Shown here piece by piece: positions 4,497 through 54,065 of a stretch of 64,000 nucleotides of DNA. Positions within the stretch are counted from its first letter, which is position 1. Every line of letters begins with the position of its first letter. The DNA is from Candidatus Baltobacteraceae bacterium (lineage in GTDB: Bacteria; Vulcanimicrobiota; Vulcanimicrobiia; Vulcanimicrobiales; Vulcanimicrobiaceae). The translations under genes were made by a program, and so were the position numbers. The notes below the pieces were generated by a model, which saw only the letters and a list, made by a program, of their open reading frames with translations, was not told the DNA's origin and made no database searches. The stretch is taken from contig DASXEW010000003.1 in NCBI GenBank assembly GCA_036489885.1, positions 930,001 to 994,000 of the forward strand, given 5' to 3'.

Positions 4497-5965
4497 ACCA
4501 GCGCTTCTTCCCGGATTTGCGGCGCCGCCGGTAGCTTGATCTCGAAAACGGTCCGGCCCGGACGGCTTTCGAGCAATCGCAACGTGCCGTGTGCGCGGCT
4601 TACTGCGTGCACGGCAATTGCCAGGCCCAGCCCCGAGCCTTCGATCTCGCCGCGCGCCGCGCCGCGGAAAAAGCGATCGAAGATGTGTGACTGTTCGTCG
4701 TCCGGGATACCAGGGCCGGCGTCGACGACTCGTGCGATAACGAACGAGCCTTCGCGCTTCACCTGAAGCTCGATCGGCGCGCCGGCGCCATACTTGCGCG
4801 CGTTGTCCAAAAGATTGGCCAGCGCTTCGTGCAGCTCGGATTCTTCCGCGAGCACGTGCGCACCGTCGTCGAGCACGAGCGCGACCGGCGGATGTCCCGG
4901 AACGTCGCGTACCGCCTCTGCAAGATTGCGCGCGACTGCGGCGACGTCGACGCGCGCGAGCTGCGAGGGTTGGGGCCGTTCGAGCCGTGCCAGAACCACC
5001 AGCTTGTCGATCAGCGCGCGCATCCGCGCGCTTTCCGTATCGAGCGTCGCAAAGGCACGATCGCGCTTAATCGGATCGGCGAGCGCGCCGCGCTTGAGGA
5101 CGTCGAGATATCCGCGAATGACGGTCAGCGGCGTGCGCAGCTCGTGACTCGCGTCCGCCACGAATTGACGAATGTATTCCTCAACGCGGCGGCGCTCGTC
5201 GAACGCGGCGGAAACTTGCGAAGCGGCGCCGTTGAATGCACTCGCCAGCTCGCCGACTTCGGTACGGTCCTGGGTGTCGATGCGTTGCGGCGTGAAATCA
5301 CCGTCCGCAAAACGCTGCAGCGCGCCGGTCACCGCGATCATCGGCGCTAGGGCTTGATCGGCAAGATAGCGTCCGATCAGAAATCCGATCAAGCCGCACA
5401 CGATCAGGCCGCCGAACGCGATCATCGCGTACGACGTCAGCAACGAACGGAAGACGTCGGGATCGGGGCTGACAAAGAATGTCGCAATCTTCGTGTCGAT
5501 GCGCTCCGGATGAATCCCGATCAGATTCGAGATCGAGAAAAGCGTTCGATTGCCGGGATTGCGATCGCCGTCAGGGGGAGGTGGTCCACCCGGTGGCGAT
5601 CCCGGTGGTGCCGGGCGCAGTCGGGGCTGCTGCGAAATCGGGACGTACACGGCGCGCCTGTGCGTTCCGAAGTGTAGCGGGGGACGGCCGACGGTCACGC
5701 CTTCGGGATGCTCGAATCCGATGATGTGCAAGCCTGGCCGCTCGACCATCTGATGCACGTTGCCGGCCAGCGACGTGAAGCCGGCGTTCGGGTTCTGCGC
5801 GACGATCTGGCGAATTTGGTTCGCGGCCGCCGCTATCGCATCGTTCGTCGCACGTGAATAGAACATCACTGCTTCGCGCGCGAGAACCGCGGCGACAAAC
5901 AGAAACAGAATCATCACGAATGCCGTGTACGAAAACGTGATGCGACCACGAAGGGTCCGGAGCAT
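4493..5965 (-). CDS. Membrane sensor histidine kinase (HAMP-HisKA-HATPase)
   Basis: 490 residues. TM1 about 11-30, a ~145-residue extracytoplasmic sensor region with a proline/glycine-rich stretch (118-135), TM2 about 179-198, HAMP, HisKA with phospho-acceptor His274 in '[19 protein letters not shown]', then HATPase with N box 'LLDNARKYG', G1 '[10 protein letters not shown]' and G2 'GSGLGLAI'. It autophosphorylates and passes phosphate to the OmpR-type regulator encoded immediately upstream, whose TAA overlaps this ATG (TAATG). The signal is unknown; the sensor domain does not match a family I recognise. Confidence 0.93.
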
Positions 5966-33840: not shown

Positions 33841-33934
33841 GGGAGCGTACGGGTCTGGTGGCTCGCACGGTCTTCAAAACCGTTGAGGCCGTCGCAAGGC
33901 GGCTGGTAGGTTCGATTCCTACACGTTCCCGCCA
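33841..33934 (+). tRNA. selC: tRNA-Sec (anticodon UCA)
   Basis: 94 nt including an encoded CCA. Acceptor stem of 8 bp (GGGAGCGT with ACGTTCCC, one G-T), T stem of 5 bp (GTAGG/CCTAC, loop TTCGATT), so the 8/5 geometry of bacterial tRNA-Sec. The D stem is GGGTC/GGCTC with a tight TGGT loop, the anticodon stem ACGGT/ACCGT with loop CTTCAAA, and the long variable arm is GCCGTC-GCAA-GGCGGC. It is charged with serine by SerRS and converted by SelA; SelB carries it to UGA. It lies 23 kb from selAB. Its 3' end is duplicated at 36175-36198. Confidence 0.96.
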
Positions 33935-47852: not shown

Positions 47853-48572
47853 ATGATCGACGAGATCGCTCGCCGGCTGCAACTCGCAAAATCGGTTTTC
47901 GTGCTGACCGGCTCGGGCATCTCGGCCGAAAGCGGGCTTCCTACGTTCCGCGGAGTCGGTGGGCTCTGGCGCACGCATCGTGTCGAAGAGCTTGCTTCTC
48001 CCGAGGGCTTCGCGCGCGATCCGCATCTCGTCTGGAGCTGGTACAACGAGCGGCGTGCGGCACATAAGCGCGCGGAACCTAGTCCCGCGCACCTCGCGCT
48101 TGCGCGTCTGGAAGCGCGCTTCGAAGAATTCACACTCGCGACGCAAAACGTCGACTCGTTACATCTCCGTGCGGGATCGCAAAATGTGCTCGAGCTGCAC
48201 GGCAATCTACGGGAAGCGTACTGTAACCTCTGCGCCCAGACGCTTTCGATCGAAGACGGGTTGCCCGTCGAGCGGATCGAGCACGCTTGCGGTGGTCTCT
48301 TCCGTCCGCGTATCGTTTGGTTCGGCGAGTCGCTTCCGCAGCGTGAGTGGATCCTTGCTGCCGAAGCGGCTTCGCGCGCGGACGTCAAACTCATCATCGG
48401 AACGTCGGCAATCGTTCAACCCGCCGCGTCGCTCGCGTTCGGCGGCGATGCCTGGATCGTGGAGATAAATCCGGAAGCGACCGCGATCTCAGATCACGTC
48501 GATGCTTCGCTCCGGGCGCGCGCATCCGACGCGCTGACGGAAATCGAGTCGCGCCTTACGGTGGAAGCTTGA
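47853..48572 (+). CDS. cobB: NAD-dependent protein deacylase, sirtuin (SIRT5-like)
   Basis: 239 residues. NAD pocket 'FVLTGSGISAESGLPTFRG', 'TQNVDSLHLRAGSQNVLELHG' with the catalytic His, 'GTSAIVQPAASLA' and 'VEINPEATAIS'. The pocket has Tyr and Arg in 'WSWYNERRAA', the YxxR signature of desuccinylase/demalonylase sirtuins. The zinc site has CNLC, but the second pair is reduced: 'IEHACGG' has Glu where the first Cys of the second pair would be. Removes acyl groups from lysines in the cytoplasm. Confidence 0.88.
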   Translation: MIDEIARRLQLAKSVFVLTGSGISAESGLPTFRGVGGLWRTHRVEELASPEGFARDPHLVWSWYNERRAAHKRAEPSPAHLALARLEARFEEFTLATQNVDSLHLRAGSQNVLELHGNLREAYCNLCAQTLSIEDGLPVERIEHACGGLFRPRIVWFGESLPQREWILAAEAASRADVKLIIGTSAIVQPAASLAFGGDAWIVEINPEATAISDHVDASLRARASDALTEIESRLTVEA

Positions 48573-49782
48573 GCGGCGGACGGCCGCTGTCGTCCTCGTA
48601 ATAACCTTCGGCAGCGATCGGGTCCGGTAGCGCCGGCGAATTGTCATATGCGCCGAATCCAGCCGTCTCCGGAATATCGAGTCTCTTTTTTGCGGGCGGC
48701 GGAGGCGGTGTGCGGCGCTTCTGCGGGGGCGGTGGCGGTGGCGTCTTGGGAAGTGGCGTGCGCGGCTGCGGTTCGCTAAACTCGCGCGGTGCATTCGGAT
48801 CGCGTTCGGGTAAACCGGCGATGCGCTTGTCGAACGTCGCTTGTCCTTCGATCGGATCGTCGATGCGCGTGCGCGGAAAGGCCTGCGGCGGCGGCAAGAG
48901 GAGATTGTCTTTCTCTTCCGGTTTTGCCAAGCCGCGAATGACATAGCACTTCTCGTTGCGCTTCATTCCACGTAGCGGGACGGTGCCGGCCGAGACGTTG
49001 ATGAACATCGTGCGCACGGGTTCGAGCGTCGATTCGGTCACGATAATGTACGCGCTCATCGGCTCCGTGCGTTCCTGGACGCGCGTGGCGACGATCGCCG
49101 GCAAACCGACCACGGTGTACTCGCGGCGTTGCGGATAGCCAACCTCGCCTGCGACGACATTTCCGCTGTTGATGCCGATCCCGACACGCATCGGCTTGCG
49201 GCCCTCGCGAGCCCAGCGCTGATTCATGCCGTCGACGAGACGGATGATGTCGATCGCAGCGCGGATCGCGTGCTCTTCCTGTAATGGGTCCTCGAGGGGG
49301 AACCCGAACGCGCCGCTGATCCCGTCGCCGAGGAATTTGTCGACCATCCCCCGGTGTTTTTGAATCGAGCGCCCGGCGACGGTGTAGAAGTCATTGAGAT
49401 ACCGCAGCGTCTCTTCGTGTTCCAGTTGCTCCGCAAACAGCGCGAAGTTCCAGATGCGGCAGACGAGCACCGTCGCGTAGCCGGTTTTCGCCGTGAACGC
49501 GCGCGCATCGCGCCGCTCCAAGAGCTCGTCGAGAATAATCGGCGAGACGTACCGCGAGAAGATATTCCGTACCCGGACCGTCTCGCGCTGGGCCGCGAGG
49601 ACTCGCTGGGCCTGCACATATGCGACCACGACTGCAGCGACGGCCGCACAAAGCGCGAGGAGCGCGATTCCCATTACCTCCCACTTATCGGGTGCCGGGG
49701 TATACTTCCCGCCACGAGGCCCGAACTTGACGCTTTTTTTCCAGGGCAGGCGTGCGTCGCGGGCGAAGCGGCGCAGCCTCAT
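48556..49782 (-). CDS. Membrane-anchored class III cyclase homologue, probably catalytically inactive
   Basis: About 408 residues. One membrane helix ('MGIALLALCAAVAAVVVAYV'), a signalling linker 'RNIFSRYVSPIILDELLER' as in cyclases, then a cyclase fold. The metal motif is 'VLVCRIWNFALFAEQL': both catalytic aspartates (FxDIxxFT) are replaced by Arg and Asn, and the Asn/Arg motif is 'YTVVGLPAIVATRVQ'. 'VDKFLGDGISGAFGFP' remains. The C-terminal ~100 residues are proline-rich and disordered. It may act as a regulatory partner. The start could be ATG 49803, 49782 or 49674; 49782 shares a CATG with the divergent gene. Confidence 0.75.
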   Translation of the reverse strand: MRLRRFARDARLPWKKSVKFGPRGGKYTPAPDKWEVMGIALLALCAAVAAVVVAYVQAQRVLAAQRETVRVRNIFSRYVSPIILDELLERRDARAFTAKTGYATVLVCRIWNFALFAEQLEHEETLRYLNDFYTVAGRSIQKHRGMVDKFLGDGISGAFGFPLEDPLQEEHAIRAAIDIIRLVDGMNQRWAREGRKPMRVGIGINSGNVVAGEVGYPQRREYTVVGLPAIVATRVQERTEPMSAYIIVTESTLEPVRTMFINVSAGTVPLRGMKRNEKCYVIRGLAKPEEKDNLLLPPPQAFPRTRIDDPIEGQATFDKRIAGLPERDPNAPREFSEPQPRTPLPKTPPPPPPQKRRTPPPPPAKKRLDIPETAGFGAYDNSPALPDPIAAEGYYEDDSGRPPLKLPP

Positions 49783-50188
49783 GGACGGCTTGAGCTTTCT
49801 CAAAGAGCGTATTCCAGCATATGCCGATTACGGCGATGAGGACGCGCGCCATCTCGTCGACAAGCAGGTTCGCGCCTACGTTGGAGAGGCGCTAAGCACC
49901 ATTCGCGAGCGGCTCGCCGCGGATCTCGTGGAGACCGTCTCGGAGCAACTCGAGAAGACACTGCTGATGTGCGAATTCTCGAATCAACAGTTGATTCATA
50001 TCCTCGATCATGCGCATCTCTCGAACACCGAAATCGAAGAGCTGCACGAGGTCGATCACGAGCTGATTCAGACCGCGGATCGCGCCAACGGCGTCGACTC
50101 CTCCAAGCTCGACGGGTACCTTTCGGAGCTGACGCAGTTGTTCGCACGCCGCGCACAAGCGGTCTTCTGGTCGGAGGACCGCCGCTAA
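49781..50188 (+). CDS. Helical hypothetical protein
   Basis: 135 residues, predicted almost entirely helical, no signal or membrane segment ('LVDKQVRAYVGEALSTIRERLAADLVETVSEQLEKTLL', 'NTEIEELHEVDHELIQTADRAN'). Its ATG overlaps the start codon of the divergent cyclase homologue, and its stop overlaps the likely start of the next gene (TAACG), suggesting cotranscription with the YkgJ-QueC fusion. No family recognised. Confidence 0.6.
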   Translation: MDGLSFLKERIPAYADYGDEDARHLVDKQVRAYVGEALSTIRERLAADLVETVSEQLEKTLLMCEFSNQQLIHILDHAHLSNTEIEELHEVDHELIQTADRANGVDSSKLDGYLSELTQLFARRAQAVFWSEDRR

Positions 50189-51123
50189 CGGACCTGCCCA
50201 ATTACATCGATCTGATCGACAGTCTTCTCGGGCCCGACGACGATCCAAAATCTGCATTCCACGATCTGAAAAAGATCGAAGGATTGCACTTCGACGGAAG
50301 CAAGTGCGCGACGTGTCCGAGGAACTGCTGCATCGTCCACGATCCCGACGAGCAGTACATCGCGATCCGCGAAGACGAACTCGAAACGATCTACGCGGCC
50401 TATCCCGACGCCGCGAAAGTTCGCGCGACCCGAAAAGGCAAGGACGGCCGGCGCTACTACACCGTTTCGAAGAAGGGTACGCGCTGCGGCTTTCTCGGCG
50501 ACGATCTCAAGTGCACGGTCTATTCGGCGCGGCCTCGCTACTGCCGCGAGAATCCCGGCAATGCATATCAGATACACGGTTGGGAAGGCGTTCGGTACGA
50601 TTTGAAACGCTGTCCGGGAACGACGTATGACAAGCCGGTGCTCTGCTTGAGCTCGGGCGGGATCGATAGCTTGGTCTTACAGGCGCATCTCAAAGCGCAA
50701 GGCTTCACGCCGTACTCGCTGTTCATCGACTACGGACAACCTGCGCGCGAACGCGAGCGCGCGTCTGCCGAAAAGATCGCCGAATACTACGACGGAAAGT
50801 TCTACATGGAGCATATGAGGCTCGATGTCTGGGACGAGCTTCCGGTCCAATCCGCGCCGGTCCGCAATGCTGTTCTCTTTTCGATTGCAGCGGCGTATTG
50901 CGATACGCTCAATATTCCGCGGATCGGACTCGCGTGGGAGCAAAAGCGCAAAGGACTCAAGATTATCGCGCCGCTGCTGGGAAAGACGAAGCTGAGCATC
51001 GTCCGTATGGGCAAAAAGTACGGAGCGCCGTTCGAGCTGTCGTGGTCGTGCCAAGAAAGCGCCGGCGCGCCGTGTGGCGCCTGCGCGAAGTGCAAGAAAC
51101 GAAACGCGGTGCTCGGAGGCTGA
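50188..51123 (+). CDS. Fusion of a YkgJ-type Cys-rich metal domain with a QueC-like PP-loop domain
   Basis: About 311 residues. N-terminal YkgJ-like (CxxCxxxCC) domain: 'GSKCATCPRNCCIVHDPDEQYIAI', 'RCGFLGDDLKCTVYSARPRYCRENP'. C-terminal PP-loop ATPase related to 7-cyano-7-deazaguanine synthase: 'VLCLSSGGIDSLVLQAHLKAQGF' (SGGxDS), 'SLFIDYGQPARERERASAEKIA', 'PLLGKTKLSIVRMGKKYGAPFELSWSC' and a four-Cys zinc site ending 'CGACAKCKKRN'. The QueC substrate loop between 'IGLAWEQ' and 'KGLKIIAPLL' is shortened, so preQ0 synthesis is not assured. No ATG/GTG/TTG fits; ACG 50188 lies in TAACG 10 nt after GGAGG, CTG 50194 is the alternative. Confidence 0.82.
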   Translation, partial: TDLPNYIDLIDSLLGPDDDPKSAFHDLKKIEGLHFDGSKCATCPRNCCIVHDPDEQYIAIREDELETIYAAYPDAAKVRATRKGKDGRRYYTVSKKGTRCGFLGDDLKCTVYSARPRYCRENPGNAYQIHGWEGVRYDLKRCPGTTYDKPVLCLSSGGIDSLVLQAHLKAQGFTPYSLFIDYGQPARERERASAEKIAEYYDGKFYMEHMRLDVWDELPVQSAPVRNAVLFSIAAAYCDTLNIPRIGLAWEQKRKGLKIIAPLLGKTKLSIVRMGKKYGAPFELSWSCQESAGAPCGACAKCKKRNAVLGG

Positions 51124-51124
51124 G

Positions 51125-53542
51125 CTAGGGGAAGTGAAGTTTTGGGATCGAGGGCAGCTGGTTCAAGAGCTGATTCTTGAGCTGATCCCAATTGGTCGGA
51201 ACGCCCAGCTCGCTGCTGAATTGGTCGACGGCGGCTTGCGTGAGCTTATTGACCGCAAGTTGCACGACGCCGTTGACGATCTTCGCCGTCAGTGATTGTC
51301 CGGCATTGACGACCTGAACTTTTCCGCCTGCGAACGTCACCGCGACCGGCTGGCTTGCGGAATAGACGTTGACCGTCAGCGAATCGCCATCGACGCCGAT
51401 GTCACCCTCGGTTCCACGCACGGCGATCGACGAAGTTGGGGTGACGAACGTGTAGTTGGCTTTGGCGCCGTTCGGATGCTCGACTTTGAAACGCGTCTTT
51501 CCTTGATAGACGACGAATTGCGCGCTTGCAACTTCGGCTTGCGTGAAGAACGCGAGCTGCACGCGCGTTTGCGAACCGAGTGTTACAACCGAGGAGTCGG
51601 GTAGCTGCAGCTTGCCGAGCGACGCATCGCCAGTGATGGCGGTGTCTTTGTCGGAGAGCGCGATCGATCCATTCGGCGCGACCTGCGTCGTCTTTCCGGA
51701 ATCTTCGTATGAGACGCTGCCCTTCACGTTCGAGAGTATTTGGTCGCTCGCGGCTCGGACGCTCTGCGGAAAGAAGATCAGCGCGAGGACGAGCGCGGCA
51801 GTCGCAACCGCGCGTGTAGGGATGGGCTGCGCGCGACGCTCGACGTCACGCAAGATCACGATGAAACATGCAGCCGCAAAGACCAGACATCCGATACCCA
51901 CGCCGACCTCCCCAAGACAAAGCTTTCCGATTCCAAAGAGCATGCCGTAGACGAGGCCGCACCCCGCGACCCAATCGCGCAAACCAATTCCGAGATTCTC
52001 GTCGCCGGGACGAACGCGCGCATAAAAACGCTCGAGCGTTTCCGCGCTTTCGGGTTGTGTCAGGAACGTCACCGAAAGCCACACGACGGTCGCGACCGCA
52101 ACGGTTACCAGCAGGCTGAGCGCAACCTGATTGGGTCCGGCGAATACATCGAGCAGCTTGAGCGCCGTCGCCGTGAAACCGGATGAGATGAGCGCGGCGA
52201 TCTCGCTCCAGGCGTTGATGCGCGGCCAGTACCAGCGCAGAATCATCACCGGACCGACGCCGGCCGTAAATGTGATCAAGTACGTCCACGCGCCGCTGAC
52301 CGAATCCATGAAACCGGTGACGACGGCCGCCAGAATCATCGCCACGATCGTGAGCGCGCGCGAGATCCAGACATAGTGTTCTTCAGATGCGTCCGGGCGC
52401 AAGAAGCGACGGTAGAGGTCGTTCGTCATATACGAGGCACCGAGATTGAGGTGCGTTCCGATCGTCGACATGTACGCCGCAAGGAATCCGGCCATCATCA
52501 GGCCGCGTAATGCAATCGGAAGATGATCGATCATCGTCTGCACGTACAGCAGCTCCGGATCTACCACGCCGGCCGCGTTTTTCACGCCGGCCGGATAGAG
52601 AACGAGCGCACTCAGCGCGACGAGGATCCAAGGCCATGGACGCAGCGCGTAGTGCGCGACGTTGAAGAACAGCGTCGCAAGGATCGAGTTCTTCTCATCT
52701 TTGGATGCAAAAATGCGCTGCGCGACGTAACTGCCGCCGCCCGGCTCGGCCCCCGGATACGACGACGCCCACCATGAGACCGCGATAAAAACGAGAAACG
52801 ATTCGAGCGGCATCCAGGCTGCGCCGTGCAGCGGCGGAAAGAATGCGAGCAGCCCGCCTTGCGCGATATGATGTGCGGCGTCGAGCGCGCCGATCTTTTC
52901 GCGCAGCGCAGCGACTCCACCGACTGCAGCAACGGCCGCAACCGCGAGAACGACCGTCATCGTCATCTTCACGACGAATTGCAAAACGTCGGTGACGAGG
53001 ACGCTCCACATCCCACCGATCGAGACATACATCGCGGTGAGCACGAGGCAAATGCCGATCGCTTCCCACTTCGGAATCCCGAGCGTCAGTCCGAGAATCT
53101 TTGCGATCGCAAGATTCACCCAGCCCATGATGATCGTGTTGATGATCACGCCCTGGTAGAAGCCGCGCGTCGCGCGCAGCACCGCTGCGGGTTTTCCGCT
53201 ATAGCGTAGCTCGGTAAATTCCACGTCGGTGAGAACGCCCGAACGCCGCCAGAGGGCGGCAAAAAAGAACGTGGTGAGAATTCCGCTCATCACCATGTTC
53301 CACCACACCCAATTTCCGGCAACGCCATTCTTTGCGACGAAGCCCGTCACCGCCAGCGGCGTGTCGGCCGCAAACGTCGTCGCGACCATCGACGTCCCGG
53401 CCAGCCACCACGGCACGTTGCGTCCGGAAAGAAAATATTCCGACATGCTCTTGCCGCCGCGGCGTGCGAAAAAAGCACCGATTCCGAGGTTGATCGCAAA
53501 AAACGCTGCGATTACGCCCCAATCAAGCGGACGAAGCTGCAT
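51125..53542 (-). CDS. Sodium:solute symporter fused to a C-terminal FecR-like domain
   Basis: 805 residues. Residues ~1-580: SSS family transporter with about 13-14 helices ('FFAINLGIGAFFARRGGKSMSEYFLSGRNVPWWLAGTSMVATTFAADTPLAVTG', 'STIGTHLNLGASYMTNDLY'). Residues ~600-805: 'ATAALVLALIFFPQSVRAAS', which reads like a signal peptide with an AxA site, followed by a FecR domain ('ILSNVKGSVSYEDSGKTTQV', 'LQLPDSSVVTLGSQTRVQL', 'VKTP'-like 'FVTPTSSIAVRGTEGDIGV'). No start codon separates the parts, so they are one polypeptide as read. The start overlaps the GGDEF gene by 20 bp. Substrate unknown. Confidence 0.85.
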   Translation of the reverse strand: MQLRPLDWGVIAAFFAINLGIGAFFARRGGKSMSEYFLSGRNVPWWLAGTSMVATTFAADTPLAVTGFVAKNGVAGNWVWWNMVMSGILTTFFFAALWRRSGVLTDVEFTELRYSGKPAAVLRATRGFYQGVIINTIIMGWVNLAIAKILGLTLGIPKWEAIGICLVLTAMYVSIGGMWSVLVTDVLQFVVKMTMTVVLAVAAVAAVGGVAALREKIGALDAAHHIAQGGLLAFFPPLHGAAWMPLESFLVFIAVSWWASSYPGAEPGGGSYVAQRIFASKDEKNSILATLFFNVAHYALRPWPWILVALSALVLYPAGVKNAAGVVDPELLYVQTMIDHLPIALRGLMMAGFLAAYMSTIGTHLNLGASYMTNDLYRRFLRPDASEEHYVWISRALTIVAMILAAVVTGFMDSVSGAWTYLITFTAGVGPVMILRWYWPRINAWSEIAALISSGFTATALKLLDVFAGPNQVALSLLVTVAVATVVWLSVTFLTQPESAETLERFYARVRPGDENLGIGLRDWVAGCGLVYGMLFGIGKLCLGEVGVGIGCLVFAAACFIVILRDVERRAQPIPTRAVATAALVLALIFFPQSVRAASDQILSNVKGSVSYEDSGKTTQVAPNGSIALSDKDTAITGDASLGKLQLPDSSVVTLGSQTRVQLAFFTQAEVASAQFVVYQGKTRFKVEHPNGAKANYTFVTPTSSIAVRGTEGDIGVDGDSLTVNVYSASQPVAVTFAGGKVQVVNAGQSLTAKIVNGVVQLAVNKLTQAAVDQFSSELGVPTNWDQLKNQLLNQLPSIPKLHFP

Positions 53543-54065
53543 TGTCCTGAGCGAATACGACGCCTCCGCGTGCCTGGGCCTTTGCGCGCAGGAGCGCTCG
53601 CTCGGCCGCCGCGAGCAACGACGGCCCTGTTTCCCCATCTAAAGGAAAGAGCGCGATACCGATTGAGACGCCGACCTGGTAGCTATCGCTTCCCGCGATG
53701 ACCGGAGCGTACAAGGCGCGCCGCAGGCGGTCGGCCATGTCTCGCGCGTCCTCTTCATCTTCGAGCTCGGGTTGCAGCGCGACGAATTCGTCCCAACCGA
53801 AACGCGCAACCGTGTCGCTTTCGCGAAGCGCAGCCACGAAGCGCTCGGCGATCAACTTAAGCGCAGCCTCGGTGCCGGCGTTGCCGGCGCGCTGCGCGAC
53901 CGCCTGAAATCCGTCGAGATCGCATATGTGAATCGCGAAGCGCCGGCCGGAGCGATTCGATAAAGCAATGACCTGAGTCAAACGGTCATCGAACAGCGCG
54001 CGGTTCGGCAATCCCGTAAGCACGTCAAAAGCGGCCGAGTTGAAGGAGACCGCGGGCTCGTCCAT
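53523..54065 (-). CDS. Stand-alone GGDEF protein with degenerate active site
   Basis: 180 residues, no sensor domain. The GGDEF fold is clear: 'DVLTGLPNRALFDDRL', 'FAIHICDLDGFQAVAQRAGNAGTEAALKLIAERF', 'ARFGWDEFVALQPE', 'VGVSIGIALFPLDGET' and 'LLAAAERALLRAKAQARGGVV'. The signature is GWDEF (90-94), and the guanine- and metal-associated residues after 'DLDGF' differ from active cyclases (Ala in place of Asn, Thr in place of Asp). c-di-GMP synthesis is doubtful; GTP binding or a structural role is possible. ATG 54065 begins at the homology; the ORF is open to 54101. Confidence 0.8.
   Translation of the reverse strand: MDEPAVSFNSAAFDVLTGLPNRALFDDRLTQVIALSNRSGRRFAIHICDLDGFQAVAQRAGNAGTEAALKLIAERFVAALRESDTVARFGWDEFVALQPELEDEEDARDMADRLRRALYAPVIAGSDSYQVGVSIGIALFPLDGETGPSLLAAAERALLRAKAQARGGVVFAQDNAASSA

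Follow-up and report, generated by a model that had tools for sequence, protein, structure and literature searches.

A gene fusing a YkgJ domain to a QueC-type PP-loop domain in Vulcanimicrobiaceae: a possible ligase with a remodelled pocket

QueC-type domains have recently been shown to act as protein-modifying ligases in CBASS, and they probably do so in the qatABCD defence system. In Cap9, a tyrosine stacks on the deazaguanine and an aspartate reads its Watson-Crick edge; QatC has Thr/Thr at these positions (PMC13279940). In E. coli QueC, alanine mutants of His39 (within YxQxHxxE), Tyr131 (within YPDC), or Tyr189 (after the first zinc cysteine) are inactive (PMC13329287). A cysteine motif related to that of YkgJ binds a [4Fe-4S] cluster in FliB (PMC8598068). 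The gene considered here, found in a window of 64,000 nucleotides (the whole stretch of DNA analysed), joins a YkgJ domain to a QueC-type domain, and a literature search found no paper naming YkgJ together with QueC.

The gene (50188..51123, + strand) runs for about 311 codons to a TGA stop. A single open frame ending at 51123 holds CATCPRNCC (CxxCxxxCC), CGFLGDDLKCTVYSARPRYC, LSSGGIDS, and SWSCQESAGAPCGACAKC, that is, all four motifs noticed in an earlier, sequence-only reading: the CxxCxxxCC, a second cysteine motif, SGGxDS, and the zinc site of QueC. That reading saw in the gene a YkgJ metal-binding domain fused to a QueC-like PP-loop enzyme, and Pfam agrees. PF03692 (CxxCxxCC/YkgJ) matches residues 37-123 (50302..50562, +) with 30.5 bits (cut-off 23, E 5.9e-7), and PF06508 (QueC) matches with 79.6 bits (cut-off 22, E 3.1e-22), both far beyond chance. 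In three fusion relatives, PF03692 scores 33.5, 36.6, and 36.1 bits against the same gathering score of 23. The PP-loop domain, placed at 50629..51108 (+) by Pfam and structure comparison, belongs to the superfamily by its passing of the 22-bit gathering score, its SGGxDS, and its CxxCxxC zinc site; by the NCBIfam model for QueC itself (TIGR00364), both the window protein (60.9 bits) and that of the relative G129 (83.2 bits) fall below the cut-off of 150.3. The GC fraction by codon position, 0.58/0.45/0.72, is coding-like in both halves. The N-terminal half carries eight cysteines (codons 50305 to 50613), invariant across the four family members. The built-in metal centre envisaged earlier is supported to this extent: judged by its cysteines, the YkgJ module is probably such a centre, an Fe-S or Zn site.

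The beginning of the gene is peculiar. No ATG, GTG, or TTG was found in the window sequence near the expected N-terminus of the fusion. The codon at 50188, where the frame had been said to start, is ACG. It remains a plausible beginning: it overlaps the upstream stop as TAACG, one base away from the classical stop-start overlap TAATG, and a GGAGGA that may serve as a Shine-Dalgarno sequence (50173..50178, +) lies 9 nt before it. The N-termini of the fusion relatives read MKGPRSLPEFVDLL or MERLDLDLIDGLF, and the window copy reads T-DLPNYIDLIDSLLG with the ACG at 50188. A sequencing error, a rare ACG start, and a damaged start would all look like this.

For the active site, the fusions were aligned with QueC domains of the canonical, Cap9, GAT-QueC, and PfkB-associated types. 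The relatives G129 and G130 retain SGGLDS, YGQ(x)5E, PMRN, [YF]GD (at the position of QueC YPD), and the four zinc cysteines. The window copy keeps the ATP pyrophosphate loop SGGIDS (50653..50670, +), the YGQ of YxQ(x)5E (50731..50739, +) without the histidine of the canonical YxQxHxxE (motif definitions from PMC13329287), the RN of (V)PxRN (50863..50868, +) in the form PVRN, and the four cysteines of the zinc site, C(x)7CxxCxxC (51049..51093, +). Missing from it are [YF]GD and the stretch preceding RN. Relative to G129 and G130, about 13 residues are deleted just before RN and about 36 at 50953..50958 (+), the latter including the QueC YPDC-type motif and with it the deazaguanine-reading [YF]xD pair. 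The QueC substrate loop is indeed shortened, as had been remarked from the sequence. The residue after the first zinc cysteine is Gln in the window copy, Tyr in QueC, and Glu in Cap9 and in G129/G130. Measured against the canonical QueC motifs, then, the window copy has its His and Tyr189 equivalents replaced and YPDC deleted, and only YxQ...E and PxRN remain. Since the equivalents of His39, Tyr131, and Tyr189, the residues reported essential in QueC, are all absent, formation of a nitrile (preQ0), one of the activities proposed earlier, is unlikely for the window copy.

The ATP and zinc sites are another matter. Their positions are conserved in 14 of 14 cases, in a domain otherwise 44% identical to that of G129 (P~1e-5). 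The P value assumes that all positions are independent and, by default, conserved to the same degree, and is only a guide: living relatives always share their catalytic positions more closely than the rest, and these would also persist in a gene damaged only recently. That the nucleobase reader was deleted while the ATP and zinc sites were kept suggests that the protein is probably a remodelled ligase rather than an enzyme of queuosine synthesis.

The family is small. A profile search found the fusion encoded in 4 of 149 genomes of the phylum Eremiobacterota, namely the window genome (G000; 3.48 Mb, 96% complete), G036, G129, and G130; over these 149 genomes, the E-value drops from 1e-144 for the fusions to 1e-22 for QueC proteins without YkgJ. 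The relatives are the Candidatus Eremiobacterota MAGs palsa_1498 and Mitchell_Peninsula_25 and the MAG UBA5184. A scan of 84,980 species by a few peptide patterns found only three fusion MAGs, all among the same four, and a similar scan of viral contigs found no further fusion; since both relied on few peptides, the family may exist elsewhere. There was no match to the fusion in a plasmid collection, and the matches in a phage collection were confined to QueC-type proteins, aligned over the QueC half, none of them a fusion. Many YkgJ proteins of the phylum stand alone, and none of those fetched and compared was closer than E 0.017 to the N-terminal half. The sequence-only reading had named two findings that would tell against it, relatives encoding the two domains separately and a canonical queC nearby. 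Neither turned up: the 149 genomes showed no close relative of either domain encoded on its own, and there is no canonical queC anywhere in the window genome. The gene is a rare domain fusion, a further variant of the QueC superfamily.

Purifying selection acts on both domains of the full-length pair G129 and G130 (dN 0.13 and dS 1.15 in the YkgJ half, dN/dS ~0.11; dN 0.19 and dS 0.81 in the QueC half, dN/dS ~0.23). Beyond this pair the ratios are rough, since synonymous sites are near saturation, and dN alone is given. The window copy is similarly constrained in both halves, differing from G129 by a dN of 0.505 in one and 0.506 in the other. The G036 homologue (L026:5986-6873) evolves differently: its QueC half (dN 0.72-0.81) is faster than its YkgJ half (dN 0.54-0.63) and looks relaxed. 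It has NDGDAAS in place of SGGxDS, no RN, and no zinc site, its frame stopping short of that point. With 3 of 14 ATP/zinc core positions and 8 of 8 YkgJ cysteines, its QueC half looks catalytically dead. The family thus offers a natural series, from a full pocket (G129/G130) through an excised one (the window copy) to a dead ligase with an intact YkgJ domain (G036).

AlphaFold2, run with four sequences, gave a fairly confident prediction of the PP-loop core of the window copy, with pLDDT of about 70-90 over most of residues 148-285 in spite of the shortened chain; its YkgJ half (pLDDT under 50) and the model of the full-length relative G129 were too poor for use. The predicted core is tied between two closest structures, QueC 3BL5 (Z 15.7, rmsd 2.7, 140 residues) and Cap9 9NTO (Z 15.4, rmsd 2.9, 143 residues). 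Membership in Cap9 was suggested by a search of the PDB with the family profile, where 9NTO was the only sequence match below E 0.1 (7.8e-12), and by motif variants. A best match of this kind depends on which family members have structures, and it does not establish membership, since the tree gave no support. In a tree of 24 sequences, the three alignable fusions formed a clade of their own (100/100), its branch long and no sister group supported; separate clades held authentic Cap9 (L131, adjoining a CBASS oligonucleotide cyclase gene), the PfkB-associated QueC-like proteins, and GAT-QueC. By BLAST, the fusion is closer to phage GAT-QueC and some canonical QueC than to Cap9. The survey also turned up other members of the superfamily. 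A stand-alone Cap9-like protein of G124 (L099, ORF 4674-5507), with YGQ(x)5E, H(x)4YADC, and an SC-E zinc motif, groups with the CBASS Cap9 of the Pseudanabaena plasmid ABRG53a. Two QueC-like proteins (L097:5128-5745 and L098:5776-6393; HxDG, SC-H), each encoded after a gene of about 415 aa, group with plasmid QueC-like proteins whose genes lie beside PfkB-kinase genes.

The surroundings of the gene say little about its function. Upstream lies an ORF for a helical protein (P0002; 49781..50188, +), with which the fusion had been supposed to be cotranscribed. The two do adjoin, but as a functional pair they do not survive comparison: the helical gene is conserved in the class independently of the fusion, being present in 74 of 149 genomes, almost none of which carry the fusion. 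In G076 (same genus), G129, G036, G130, and G118, the helical gene adjoins a gene for an SSF transporter with no fusion between; in G076 the two converge and about 4 bp separate them. The window has the same two genes on either side of the fusion, whose 936 bp exactly fill the space between. Synteny therefore rejects an operon, the fusion being an extra gene in the helical-transporter junction, and the helical protein is left out of the proposed system. The G129 fusion is found at another place, with an EamA-type transporter gene on one side and a glyoxalase-like gene on the other; in G130 it likewise precedes a glyoxalase-like gene; in G036 it stands beside a different gene set. No neighbourhood was conserved across the four loci. 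With different loci, and the junction undisturbed in relatives, no partner gene is conserved beside the fusion, and the window copy is most likely a newcomer at its present junction, having arrived or moved there. A search around it for transposon ends or target duplications found nothing convincing.

Its neighbours in the window are genes for SIR2, an adenylate/guanylate cyclase, the SSF transporter, and GGDEF, with no CD-NTase among them. The only PADLOC match at the locus is that of the adenylate/guanylate cyclase-domain protein (48556-49803, -) to Pycsar cyclases, and this is probably not a defence gene, since a homologue stands at the same place in G076. The transporter (51125-53638, -) combines a sodium:solute symporter and, at its C-terminus, a FecR domain in a single chain; its counterparts in G129, G130, and G118 are shorter, at about 590-605 aa. 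Farther off, ARAGORN predicts a tRNA-Sec (33841-33934, +), and the ORFs tested on both sides of it are not selA/selB-like.

Might the fusion be the organism's QueC? A check for queD, queE, and queF had been proposed, and the first two are present, the third absent. The window genome encodes QueD and QueE, the makers of 7-carboxy-7-deazaguanine (CDG), side by side (L090:6791-7734; G000 C1 about 342790-343733); QueD scores 98.4 bits, over its cut-off, and the best families for QueE are all QueE, at scores below their cut-offs. It also has tgt and queA, but neither canonical queC nor queF was found in this 96% complete genome. Most of the approximately 116 genomes of the class likewise have queE and tgt but lack canonical queC and queF (for queA and queD the check covered the window genome only, and queE matches are weaker in one family of the class). 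G076 is an example, with queE and tgt and with neither canonical queC nor the fusion. Because the same hole exists in most relatives lacking the fusion, the latter is probably not the missing QueC, and, present in only four genomes, it is not a general solution. Among the genes recurring near queD-queE, judged from their sequences, no candidate replacement for QueC or QueF stood out. Two possibilities are left: preQ1 is made from CDG by unknown enzymes, or it is taken up from outside and CDG serves another purpose. A literature search found no paper naming Eremiobacterota with queuosine.

What, then, might the protein do? With modest confidence, the most likely reading is an enzyme that activates and ligates its substrate with ATP, its pocket remodelled and a YkgJ metal module attached; early decay is the main rival. 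The window copy would belong to a small family of Eremiobacterota enzymes that combine, in one chain, a YkgJ module with eight invariant cysteines and a QueC-type PP-loop domain. Its C-terminal half would bind ATP at SGGIDS, make the acyl-adenylate of a carboxylate, and pass it to an amine, as the superfamily generally does. CDG is a plausible substrate for G129 and G130, since they have the Tyr/Phe-x-Asp nucleobase reader. In the window copy, with the reader excised, the pocket may be more open, much as QatC replaces the same two residues, and the protein may act on a probably larger donor or acceptor; a role in modifying tRNA or DNA, another of the earlier proposals, is conceivable. The YkgJ module, with its putative metal, could be a partner-binding or redox-sensing element. 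What the data show is the fusion, the motifs kept and lost, the predicted fold of the core and the constraint on it, and the lack of conserved neighbours and of queC and queF; the chemistry, the metal, the open pocket, and the substrate are inferred. That the window copy is a YkgJ-equipped PP-loop ligase remodelled away from deazaguanine is tentatively preferred, at somewhat less than even chances. The broader proposal is unlikely as it stands: a family of Fe-S-equipped, QueC-derived ligases outside known defence systems, whose substrate would be a macromolecule or something else that is not a deazaguanine, in a class with tgt and with queD and queE for making CDG, but from which queC and queF have been lost.

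Early decay would explain the missing ATG and the lost pocket just as well, and in G036 the QueC active site has already gone. The QueC half of the window copy may no longer be active, or the whole gene may be a recent pseudogene inserted without a start codon, with only YkgJ mattering, as in G036. The gene's position as an extra in a junction that G076 closes to about 4 bp fits this, as do the reader and pre-RN deletions and the faster dN of the dead QueC half in G036; the 14 of 14 retained positions, the equal dN of the two halves against G129, and coding-like GC3 throughout, with no stop codon or frameshift, speak for function, and decay is possible but unlikely. A divergent QueC filling the step from CDG to preQ0 is quite improbable. 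It would account for the only QueC-family protein found in a nearly complete genome with queD, queE, tgt, and queA, but against it stand the missing catalytic residues (PMC13329287), the absence of QueF, the next enzyme, the low TIGR00364 score, and the presence of queE and tgt, with neither canonical queC nor fusion, in nearly all other genomes of the class; it was set aside. Very improbable is a Cap9-like defence ligase attaching a deazaguanine to a protein N-terminus. The 9NTO match, YxQ(x)5E, and the Cys-Glu of the G129/G130 zinc site recall Cap9; the separate clade, the BLAST results, the lack of an adjacent CD-NTase or defence system, and the absence of the H(x)4YxDCxxxF reader from the window copy speak against it.

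If the tentatively preferred remodelled ligase is real, a further QueC lineage, with an N-terminal metal module and the reader deleted, would widen the known uses of the fold. The class still appears to make CDG without the enzymes that normally consume it, which points to another use of CDG.

The fusion resembles several known systems and is the same as none. With QueC (3BL5, 2PG3) it shares the PP-loop fold, SGGxDS, RN, and the CxxCxxC zinc site; it differs in its N-terminal YkgJ domain, the lack of His in YxQxHxxE and of Tyr after the first zinc cysteine, its own clade, its score below the TIGR00364 cut-off, and, in the window copy, the deleted YPDC loop. Cap9 of type IV CBASS (9NTO) is alike in YxQ(x)5E, RN, a short core, and nearly the same Z score, and G129/G130 have its SC-E zinc motif, but Cap9 has no YkgJ domain, the fusion has no CD-NTase neighbour, and the Cap9 motif H(x)4YxDCxxxF is deleted in the window copy and reads [YF]GDH in G129/G130. 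Against the NCBIfam model for QatC (NF041925, cut-off 280), the G129 protein scores 16.5 and the window protein has no match at E<=1. QatC of qatABCD likewise has a QueC core with an N-terminal extension and does not conserve the Tyr/Asp of the reader, but there the pair is replaced by Thr/Thr, and the motif set and operon are QatC's own. The GAT-QueC proteins of phages (Nonagvirus and others), the best BLAST matches of the G129 QueC half in the compared set (~1e-20), also carry the QueC domain behind an extra N-terminal domain, but they are annotated as glutamine amidotransferase-QueC and lie in queuosine-type clusters with queD, queE, and folE. Finally, the N-terminal half shares with the PF03692 YkgJ family the CxxCxxxCC plus four further cysteines, FliB having a related motif, and its similarity to the compared stand-alone YkgJ proteins of the phylum is remote (E above 0.01).
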